From contig PHBQ01000010.1 in assembly GCA_002841975.1 (NCBI GenBank), positions 1 through 48,860 of the forward strand: a stretch of DNA of 48,860 nt, given 5' to 3'. The notes beneath the pieces were generated by a model. The model saw only the letters and a list, made by a program, of their open reading frames with translations. It did not search any database and had not been told where the DNA came from. Made by a program: the position numbers and the translations under genes. Of this stretch, positions 27,606 through 44,043 are shown in pieces (the stretch's first letter is position 1; the number at the start of each line of letters is the position of its first letter). Origin of the DNA: Candidatus Cloacimonetes bacterium HGW-Cloacimonetes-1 (GTDB lineage: Bacteria > Cloacimonadota > Cloacimonadia > Cloacimonadales > Cloacimonadaceae).

Positions 27606-27691
27606 GCGAAAGTGGCGGAATTGGCAGACGCGCTGGACTTAGGATCCAGTAGGTTACACCTGTAGGGGTTCGAGTCCCCTCTTTCGCACCA
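27606..27691 (+). tRNA. tRNA-Leu (anticodon UAG), CCA encoded
   Basis: A 7-pair acceptor stem GCGAAAG/CTTTCGC, an anticodon stem CTGGA/TCCAG around loop CTTAGGA (anticodon TAG at 27640-27642), a long variable arm as expected for a class II tRNA, and T-loop GGTTCGAGTCC. CCA is encoded at 27689-27691. It decodes CUN leucine codons, chiefly CUA. It lies 39 bases after panC and 33 before trigger factor, probably co-transcribed with the latter. Confidence 0.97.
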
Positions 27692-40795: not shown

Positions 40796-41580
40796 TTTAC
40801 AGCCTCACAATGTTGTTTCACTCGTGTGATTGATAGTGCTTTTCCTGTCAGTACATCGATCTTGATTATCGCACCATTAAGCTGTAAACCGGTATCGGGT
40901 ACTTCATAGCGAATTGGAACTGCTGTAAGCATTTTCTCCAAAATGATGTTCTTTCTAATACCGATTACAGAGTCATGTGGTCCGGTCATTCCGGCATCTG
41001 TCAGATAAGCCATGCCCCGCGGTAGGATTTCTTCATCAGCTGTTTGGATATGAGTGTGAGTTCCGATCAAAGCCGATACTCTACCATCCAGAAACCATCC
41101 CATGGCACGCTTTTCTGCGGTGGATTCAGCATGGAAATCGACTAAAATAATGTTTGAATTTGCACGGATATCATCGTAATATTTATCGATTGCCAAAAAG
41201 GGAGAATCTGTGGGTGGCATATAGATCTGACCAGCAAGGCTTACTACTGTGAGAGCCACGTTCTTTTTCTCTAGTGTAAACCATCTGCTGCCGGGTGTCC
41301 TAAACGGATAATTGAGGGGTTTTACAATCTGGGGTGTTTTATGGATAAAATCCAAAGATTCATTGCGGTCCCACAAGTGGTTACCACCAGTCACAATGTC
41401 CACCCCTGCATGAAATAGTGGTTTACACGTGCGTTCGGTAAGTCCCCTGCCATCAGCAAGGTTTTCACCATTTACCACGCAAAAGTCTATTTTATGTGTT
41501 TCAAGAAATTGAGGAAGTCTTTCGATAACTAGGTTTCTACCCGGCTTTCCAAAGACATCCCCCAAAAACAGAATATTCAT
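40792..41580 (-). CDS. ymdB: YmdB-family metallophosphoesterase
   Basis: 262 residues of the YmdB family, which hydrolyses 2',3'-cyclic nucleotides and affects biofilm and motility choices in Bacillus. Metal ligands are all visible: Asp in FLGDVFG, Glu-Asn in VNGENLADG, Asn-His in TGGNHLWD, His in VDFHAEST, His-x-His in GTHTHIQTAD. It directly follows rny with the stop and start overlapping by one base, which is the classic rny-ymdB pairing and suggests a shared role in RNA turnover. Confidence 0.93.
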   Translation of the reverse strand: MNILFLGDVFGKPGRNLVIERLPQFLETHKIDFCVVNGENLADGRGLTERTCKPLFHAGVDIVTGGNHLWDRNESLDFIHKTPQIVKPLNYPFRTPGSRWFTLEKKNVALTVVSLAGQIYMPPTDSPFLAIDKYYDDIRANSNIILVDFHAESTAEKRAMGWFLDGRVSALIGTHTHIQTADEEILPRGMAYLTDAGMTGPHDSVIGIRKNIILEKMLTAVPIRYEVPDTGLQLNGAIIKIDVLTGKALSITRVKQHCEAVN

Positions 41581-43142
41581 TACTTCGCCATTGCCACTTG
41601 ACGCGTTTCGCGGATTACAGTGACTTTTATCTGGCCCGGATACTGAACTTGCTTCTCGATCTGAGCGGCGATTTCGGTTGCAATGATTGGTGTTTGAGCG
41701 TCTTCAATCTGAGATGGCTCGACAATGATTCTCAGTTCTCTTCCGGCTTGGATGGCATATGATTTGTTTACACCTTCGACCGAATTGGCAATTTCTTCCA
41801 ATTTAGCAAGTCTTTGCATATAGGTTTCTAACATTTCGCGACGGGCACCGGGACGGGCTCCTGAGATTGCATCTGATGCTTGAACCAAGGCTCCGTACAC
41901 TGAAGTAGCTTCGACTTCTTCATGATGCGCTTCGATAGCGTTGATTATGACTTTGTTCTCACCATTCTTTCTGGCCAGATTGGCACCTAAGACGGCGTGT
42001 GAACCATCAAATTCGTGATCAATTGCTTTTCCAAGGTCATGCAACAAACCGGCGCGTCTGGCAATCTCTTGATCCAGACCCAGTTCAGTTGCCAGGATTC
42101 CACAAATCCAAGCTGCTTCGATGGAGTGATTCAGCACATTCTGTCCGTAACTGGTACGATAATGAAGCCTTCCCAGTACTTTGATCAGGTTTGGTGAGAT
42201 GTTGTGGATATTTGTCTCGAGGACTGCTTTTTCACCGATTTTGATCAGGTTCTCATCCATCTCTTTACCGGTTTTAGCAACGACTTCTTCGATTCTACCC
42301 GGATGGATTCTACCATCAGAGATCAATTTTTCCAAAGAGAGCCTGGCAATTTCGCGACGTACGGGGTCAAAGCATGAAAGCACAACAGCCTCTGGAGTAT
42401 CGTCAATAATCAGATCTACGCCTGAAGCCTTTTCAAAGGTGCGAATATTTCTTCCTTCACGACCGATAATCCTACCCTTCATTTCGTCGTTAGGTAGAGA
42501 CACCACAGAAACAGTGGTTTCGGATACATGATCAACAGCCATACGTTGAATAGCTGTTGCTAAAATCTCAGAAGCCTTTTTATTGGCATCAAGTTTAAGT
42601 TGCTCAAGTGCTATGCGAACGTCATTAGCAGCTACGTGACGGGCTTGATTGATGATCTCATCACGCAGTTTTTGAATCGCTTCTTCTCTGGAGAGTCCGG
42701 CGATCTCTTCAAGCTTCTTTTTCTGCTCGGCTACTACTAGATCGTATTCACCAATACTCTTTGCCAATTCGTCTTCTTTGACTTTGAGTTTGCGTTCTTG
42801 TTCAGTTAAATTGTTCTCTTTCTTGTCCAGGGAATCCAGTCTTTTGTCCAAAGACCCCAGTCTTTCATTATATTTCTTTTCTTGAATGCGTAGTTCTTTC
42901 TGGCGTTCTTTGATTTCTTCTTCATGAATACGCTTCTGTTTGAACCATTCTTCTCTTGCTTCCAACAGGGCAGCTTTTTTGGAATTCTCAGCCTCTTTAT
43001 GAGCCTCTTTCTTGATGTCTTCTGCGATTTGTTTGGCTTGAGATATAAGTTTGAAACTGGAATTACGCTGGACCCAATAAAAAATGAAAGCTACAATAAA
43101 CCCAATTGCCAAGCCGATTACGGCTGGTATTAATCTATCCAT
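41580..43142 (-). CDS. rny: Ribonuclease Y
   Basis: Membrane-anchored endonuclease that starts mRNA decay in many bacteria. 520 residues. An N-terminal membrane helix (about 5-24, IGLAIGFIVAFIFYWV), a long charged coiled coil (about 30-200), a KH domain with GRIIGREGRNIRTFE, and the HD domain with HDLGKAIDHEFDGSHA. AAGGA lies seven bases before the ATG. It is preceded by a structured 258-base spacer that separates it from zapA and followed at once by ymdB. Confidence 0.97.
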   Translation of the reverse strand: MDRLIPAVIGLAIGFIVAFIFYWVQRNSSFKLISQAKQIAEDIKKEAHKEAENSKKAALLEAREEWFKQKRIHEEEIKERQKELRIQEKKYNERLGSLDKRLDSLDKKENNLTEQERKLKVKEDELAKSIGEYDLVVAEQKKKLEEIAGLSREEAIQKLRDEIINQARHVAANDVRIALEQLKLDANKKASEILATAIQRMAVDHVSETTVSVVSLPNDEMKGRIIGREGRNIRTFEKASGVDLIIDDTPEAVVLSCFDPVRREIARLSLEKLISDGRIHPGRIEEVVAKTGKEMDENLIKIGEKAVLETNIHNISPNLIKVLGRLHYRTSYGQNVLNHSIEAAWICGILATELGLDQEIARRAGLLHDLGKAIDHEFDGSHAVLGANLARKNGENKVIINAIEAHHEEVEATSVYGALVQASDAISGARPGARREMLETYMQRLAKLEEIANSVEGVNKSYAIQAGRELRIIVEPSQIEDAQTPIIATEIAAQIEKQVQYPGQIKVTVIRETRQVAMAK

Positions 43143-43219
43143 ATACGTTTCCTTGTTCTTATACGAGCCTTGTCTTGAACAACGGCCCGCATTGTTATAG
43201 CCATTAAATCATGGTTAAT

Positions 43220-43397
43220 ATAAATCCCCGCAGTGACCGTGTATGCTTGACAAGTAAAGCCGAATATTAAGGTGGGTATCTACCTTATAAGCTTTATGGA
43301 TCCGAAACGAGTTCGGCATGCACGCCACAAATGGCTTGACTCCCGATATTTTGATAGCTTTATAACAATACATATCACAAATCCTGCAGGGATATAA
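43220..43397 (-). ncRNA. Candidate structured RNA, possibly 6S RNA
   Basis: Between zapA and rny, where 6S RNA genes occur in several bacterial groups (zapA-ssrS linkage). On the minus strand the ends pair: AUCCCUGCAG (43393-43384) with CUGCGGGGAU (43233-43224), 10 pairs with one G-U. Further in, GUGaUAUG pairs with CAUACAC (one bulge), UAAAGC with GCUUUA, and AAUAU with AUAUU, giving a long rod with internal loops. Small hairpins (CCGAA/UUCGG, AAGGU/ACCUU) fill the top. Length and rod shape fit 6S; the multi-hairpin top and the small internal bubble fit less well. I recognise no conserved 6S sequence. Confidence 0.5.
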
Positions 43398-43400
43398 AAT

Positions 43401-43670
43401 CTATATGTCACCAATGATTTTTGATATCATCTGATTCATCCTTTCCAGGTCTGAACTCAGATCTCTATTTTTAATTATTAGTTCGTGAGTTTCCTCTTGC
43501 TGTTGAAGTGTAACTAAAAGCAGCAGTCTCGTAAAATCTAGATTGTCATATTGTTCACGAAATTGCGCCAATTTACGATTGAGTTCATCGACAATTTCGA
43601 TCGTAGCATCTGGATTATCGCTACGCAGTTTGAACTTGCGGCCGTAAATTTCCACTTCTACTGATTGCAT
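43401..43670 (-). CDS. zapA: Cell division protein ZapA
   Basis: Small cytoplasmic protein that binds FtsZ and strengthens the division ring. 89 residues. The N-terminal strand region SVEVEIYGRKFKLRSD and the helical second half (EIVDELNRKLAQF...LLLLVTLQQQEETHELI) are typical of the family, with a coiled-coil end. It follows the coiled-coil gene by 10 bases and precedes the candidate RNA gene. Confidence 0.92.
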   Translation of the reverse strand: MQSVEVEIYGRKFKLRSDNPDATIEIVDELNRKLAQFREQYDNLDFTRLLLLVTLQQQEETHELIIKNRDLSSDLERMNQMISKIIGDI

Positions 43671-43680
43671 GATGCCTCTC

Positions 43681-44043
43681 TTAGGCTGGGGATACAGGGT
43701 TTACCAAACTATCGATTTTCAAGATGGCATCGTTTGCTAAGTCTTCAAAGCTCATCATTGTACCTTCAAGGTCCTGATGGAGTTGTTGCAGATCTTGATG
43801 CTGTTTCTGAAGCTCATGGTGCTGGGATTGTAAAGTTCTCAATTGAGCGTCTAACTCTAACACTTTCGCATCTGAAATACTCTTGAGCTTGTTGATTTCA
43901 TCTATTTGTTGAATCAGTTGTAGGTTTTCTTCGGTTAGAGCGTTGTTATAGTCTTCGGCATCAGCCAATTTCTTTTTATCTTTAGTGTATTGATCTATCA
44001 GAATTTGAATTTTGTCTTGTAAGTTAACTGCACGATTTTCCAT
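43681..44043 (-). CDS. Coiled-coil protein, possible ZapB-like division factor
   Basis: 120 residues, nearly all heptad-like, with a His/Gln-rich stretch HHELQKQHQDLQQLHQDLEG in the middle and a short hydrophobic end. No other domain. Placed immediately before zapA and 4 bases after pheT. In E. coli ZapB is a small coiled coil that works with ZapA; the neighbourhood suggests the same here, but sequence alone cannot tell it from any other coiled coil. Confidence 0.65.
   Translation of the reverse strand: MENRAVNLQDKIQILIDQYTKDKKKLADAEDYNNALTEENLQLIQQIDEINKLKSISDAKVLELDAQLRTLQSQHHELQKQHQDLQQLHQDLEGTMMSFEDLANDAILKIDSLVNPVSPA

Follow-up and report, generated by a model that had tools for sequence, protein, structure and literature searches.

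A divergent 6S RNA between zapA and rny in a Cloacimonadota bacterium, probably cut out of a shared protein-operon transcript

The proximity of zapA to ssrS, the gene for 6S RNA, is not in itself a new finding, as this linkage is already known in beta- and gammaproteobacteria (PMC7641849). According to the same article, which relays earlier work, E. coli ssrS is co-transcribed with its downstream gene and the dicistronic transcript is processed. The pRNA-mediated release of 6S RNA has been summarised as well (PMC11077062). Our literature search returned no description of a 6S RNA in Cloacimonadota, nor of one adjoining rny. The results presented here add a well-supported 6S RNA to a phylum without one in the literature searched, and extend the zapA-6S linkage to Cloacimonadota and to a deltaproteobacterial phylum, there with rny as the next gene.

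The window analysed is a stretch of 48,860 nucleotides from a Cloacimonadota bacterium, in which a first-pass annotation had singled out a highly foldable segment at 43220-43397 as a candidate 6S RNA. This segment was indeed recovered by an Rfam 15 scan of the window as a match to RF00013 (6S RNA) at 43395..43221 on the minus strand, and the covariance-model search, which the annotation had itself proposed as a check, returned a score of 65.2 bits, above the curated cut-off of 46.4 (E 9.4e-11). The alignment is full-length (positions 1-187 of the 187 in the model), and at E values up to 1 the segment matched nothing else in Rfam. The predicted RNA (43221..43395, minus strand; 5' end at 43395, 3' end at 43221) is 175 nt long, compared to 167-217 nt in its relatives and to the approximately 150-200 nt expected of a 6S RNA; at one locus (L109:1501-1717, minus strand) the 6S RNA is 217 nt long and its apical region is expanded. 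A genome-wide search found no second copy, and the gene is thus single-copy. A primary sigma factor is encoded in the genome as well (TIGR02393; its 384.6 bits exceed the cut-off), and the primary sigma-70/sigma-A factor is the expected partner of 6S RNA. The segment is a real 6S RNA which, though divergent, clearly belongs to this known family. Because the score amounts to only 65 bits, and the 6S RNAs of some relatives fall below the Rfam cut-off, the 6S RNA of this phylum represents a divergent subfamily. Overall, we place at about 95% the probability that the element is the single-copy ssrS of this Cloacimonadota bacterium, which would act as a 6S RNA and would probably be excised from a pheT-zapA-6S-rny transcript. 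Elsewhere in the window, Rfam recognised a plus-strand tRNA gene at 27606-27688 (59.7 bits).

Within the phylum, the Rfam model detected 6S RNA in 83 of 125 genomes and one that we constructed from 20 sequences of the same family as the window detected it in 97; when both models were combined, 113 of the 125 genomes had one full match each. The remaining 12 had no 6S match even under laxer filters. Loss of 6S RNA in these genomes can be rejected, as all of them either lack the rny locus or have it interrupted by a contig end: rny was undetected in nine and truncated in two, and in the last one (G107) the contig starts within a 5'-truncated 6S RNA, retained directly upstream of rny. 6S RNA, in fact, occurs wherever the upstream flank of rny is assembled. 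Such phylum-wide presence, together with the match to the Rfam model and the covariation found in the spacer, bears out the earlier proposal that this is the 6S RNA of this phylum.

The two genes that flank the RNA are encoded on the minus strand. Upstream, zapA (43401..43670; an ORF of 89 aa, Pfam ZapA PF05164, E 6.6e-11) has its stop codon ending 5 nt before the first nucleotide of 6S RNA; downstream, the start codon of rny (41580..43142; an ORF of 520 aa for RNase Y, with the Pfam domains RNase_Y_N (PF12072), KH and HD) lies 78 nt beyond the 3' end of 6S RNA, and ymdB (PF13277) comes next. The RNase Y is 77-80% identical to that encoded on the nearest 'Candidatus Cloacimonadota' contigs. 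Between pheT and zapA, an ORF at 43681..44043, also on the minus strand, encodes a coiled-coil-like protein of 120 aa, conserved in the family; it had no Pfam match above the cut-off and, judging from its position and composition, may be a ZapB-like protein. The order pheT, small coiled-coil protein, zapA, 6S, rny and ymdB is found throughout the phylum where contigs are long enough. Among the 87 genomes outside family f13 for which this distance was counted, 79 have the stop codon of zapA no more than 10 nt from the first 6S nucleotide, and in 31 it overlaps the RNA. The distance from the end of 6S RNA to the ATG of rny is 12-26 nt in most other families of the order; in the family of the window and a few others it amounts to 43-98 nt. 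The 6S-rny spacer of the window (43143..43220, minus strand) could form a small hairpin, AACAA-UGCGGGCCG-UUGUU, and holds no terminator-like site on its minus (coding) strand. Elsewhere in this family (e.g., L127, L144, and L153), the same spacer carries a small, sequence-variable hairpin without a U-run.

This anatomy suggests that the 6S RNA is probably cut out of a transcript that it shares with the protein-coding genes. Since zapA and rny flank it nearly without gaps and the spacers yielded neither a promoter nor a terminator for it, excision is the simplest reading: pheT, zapA, 6S, and rny would be transcribed as one polycistronic RNA, from which nucleases would excise the 6S RNA. The first-pass annotation had raised processing from a zapA-rny transcript, an idea that is compatible with the 6S identity and that we favour as the route of biogenesis. 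The near absence of spacers also makes biogenesis of 6S RNA through excision from an mRNA directly testable. Alternatively, the 6S RNA could be a stand-alone gene with its own promoter in the 3' end of zapA, and rny could be either read through or separately promoted, a scenario that would oppose only the processing part of our reading and not the identification of the RNA. Such an arrangement has a precedent in E. coli, where ssrS has dedicated upstream promoters and is co-transcribed with ygfA, and it finds some encouragement in a TATAGA motif that the window holds close to the 5' end of the RNA, and in TATAAA- or TATAAT-like boxes there in some relatives. Across 83 genomes, however, promoters at the 6S 5' end scored 7.33 of 12 as opposed to 7.13 in slid controls, which is no clear excess, with the reservation that the sigma-70 consensus behind these scores may not be valid for Cloacimonadota. 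Constraint on synonymous sites does not speak for a promoter within zapA either, as the family of the window shows a synonymous codon identity of 0.43 over the last 17 codons and of 0.44 over the remainder of zapA; in family f10 the value at the end was slightly higher, 0.59 against 0.54. With neither consensus scoring nor synonymous constraint to support it, we regard a dedicated promoter inside zapA as unlikely.

The linkage of 6S RNA to zapA and rny reaches beyond Cloacimonadota. Deltaproteobacterial contigs, found as relatives in RNase Y, carry 6S RNA upstream of rny and zapA directly before 6S. In L025 and L042, 6S and rny are separated by an ORF of roughly 200 codons, by sequence a putative 5-formyl-THF cyclo-ligase (ygfA). 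All 29 further 6S loci from the phylum of L025 and L034, which were the best-scoring 6S loci of the draw rather than a random sample, have a rny homologue downstream within 1.5 kb, and zapA was detectable in 24 of these 29, usually 0-20 nt upstream of 6S. The order zapA-6S-(ygfA-like ORF)-rny is widespread in this deltaproteobacterial phylum (L198-L238). What goes beyond routine annotation in our findings is only the fixed and almost gapless position between zapA and rny, and the conserved linkage to rny is mildly novel.

The neighbourhood of rny suggests a possible link of polymerase control with mRNA decay. A true functional coupling, in which the ancient and nearly gapless zapA-6S-rny arrangement would allow 6S RNA still within the transcript to recruit RNA polymerase to the rny mRNA, or in which its excision, perhaps by RNase Y itself, would set rny expression, appears improbable to us; if it were true, a polymerase inhibitor and the main mRNA-decay enzyme would be made in a fixed ratio. 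To our knowledge, 6S RNA is not adjacent to rny in B. subtilis. RNA polymerase of B. subtilis has been reported to bind rny mRNA (PMC11077062), and given such binding the 6S-rny neighbourhood may merit experiment.

The same report could also be invoked, together with a position just upstream of rny that is constant in the phylum and in a second group, to propose that the element is a cis-acting rny leader, such as an attenuator or a polymerase-binding 5' UTR, which would be kept in the mRNA and never be released as free 6S RNA. Family f13 offers a further argument in this direction, because there GUUCUUUCC just before 6S pairs with GGAAAGGA just after it, the latter containing the rny ribosome-binding site, and the duplex averages -12.5 kcal/mol compared to -7.5 kcal/mol when shuffled. 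This flank pairing, seen at L082-L086, L088, L099, L100, L102, L105, L106, L110, L126, L131, and L138, might serve as a site for RNase III or as a switch of translation. It is absent in the family of the window and in the rest of the order, and a general role of 6S flanks in hiding the ribosome-binding site was thus rejected, as the pairing is confined to f13. Against the leader proposal, moreover, the element equals free 6S RNAs in length and keeps their whole structure, and the ygfA-like ORF that separates 6S from rny in L025 and L042 means that it is not always a direct leader; we therefore consider this explanation very improbable.

Our identification of the element as 6S RNA is reinforced by the comparison of its fold among relatives. 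The folding energy of the minus strand was -51.2 kcal/mol, against -39.9 +/- 3.7 kcal/mol for 200 dinucleotide shuffles, of which 2 folded as well (z -3.07). Because the plus strand folds about equally well (z -3.2), folding of a single sequence cannot decide the strand; the Rfam match and the gene order do, and they settle it as the minus one, in agreement with the first-pass annotation, which had placed the element on the coding strand of the flanking genes. The closing stem of 10 pairs described there is present (43393..43384 with 43233..43224; 5' arm AUCCCUGCAG at 43384..43393 and 3' arm CUGCGGGGAU at 43224..43233, both on the minus strand), and its pairs are conserved and covary in 20 relatives, as do those of the 7-pair and apical stems. 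The nested pairings reported along with it, of seven (UAAAGCU/GGCUUUA), six (UAAGGU/ACCUUA) and five pairs (CCGAA/UUCGG), can all be found in the sequence; the first of them belongs to the covarying rod, whereas the 6-pair hairpin is not a conserved feature, as its two outer pairs are formed in only 5 and 7 of the 20 relatives, respectively. Comparative folding of the zapA-rny spacer, also advised at that stage, revealed double-sided changes in 16 of the 46 pairs when 20 family members were aligned with MAFFT, a result that none of 500 shuffles equalled, and 97.4% of the consensus-rod cells in this alignment were paired, as opposed to 22-42% with slid partners. In 86 sequences of the order, 35 of the 46 pairs covary, although this alignment was fitted to the model and is hence biased towards it. 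The stem that closes the central bubble alternates among AAGCU/GGCUU, GAACC/GGUUC and GAGUC/GACUC forms, and the terminal stem covaries too (columns 58-125, 74-108, 75-107, and 84-99 of alignment A1), which supports a continuous rod. The first-pass annotation had instead described a tip that differs from textbook 6S RNA, and this claim found no support: several hairpins appear only in the minimum-energy fold, where the single sequence reaches about -51.1 kcal/mol in the multi-hairpin form and -46.2 kcal/mol in the enforced 6S rod, whereas covariation favours the usual continuous rod. With the 6S rod backed by covariation and the 6-pair hairpin not conserved, the multi-hairpin tip is an artefact of single-sequence minimum-energy folding. 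That tip was what spoke for a novel structured RNA outside the 6S family, or for a spacer foldable by chance, a reading of negligible probability that is already refuted by the full-model Rfam 6S match (E 9e-11), by the covariation of the 6S rod in relatives that mostly break the 6-pair hairpin, and by conservation throughout the phylum.

In the Rfam alignment, the interval 43343..43362 (minus strand) comprises the stem strand UAAAGCU (43362-43356) followed by the 5' strand of the central bubble, and extends to the GGGA with which the terminal stem begins to be recognisable. This bubble strand, AUCAAAAUAUC, is A/U-rich, occupies about 43355-43345 of the minus strand and is flanked by covarying stems; analogy with the 6S RNAs of E. 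coli and B. subtilis makes it the likely template for pRNA. If this 6S RNA behaves as the rest of its family, it would be an abundant free RNA, mostly in stationary phase, and would mimic an open promoter and occupy the primary-sigma RNA polymerase holoenzyme as growth slows, until transcription of a short pRNA from the central bubble by the polymerase would lead to its release. Both polymerase binding and pRNA synthesis by this particular RNA are inferred by analogy.

How the locus compares with known systems can be summarised as follows. Ms1 RNA of Actinobacteria is likewise a 6S-like rod that binds RNA polymerase (PMC9130861), but Ms1 binds the core enzyme without sigma, and the RNA in the window matches the 6S model alone among Rfam families at E values up to 1. 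With the 6S RNAs of beta- and gammaproteobacteria it shares zapA just upstream (PMC7641849). The same holds for the ssrS-ygfA locus of E. coli, which it may further resemble in co-transcription and processing, both of which are suggested here by the anatomy of the locus. The dedicated promoters of E. coli ssrS, on the other hand, had no counterpart detected here by the sigma-70 consensus scan. The closest likeness is to the 6S/SsrS family itself (RF00013), in the length of 175 nt, the closing stem, the A/U-rich 5' strand of the bubble, the terminal stem with its apical hairpin and the conserved GGGA...CCCACCU; the RNA described here departs from that family in a score of only 65 bits, in having rny downstream instead of ygfA or EVE, and in the almost complete lack of a spacer after zapA.
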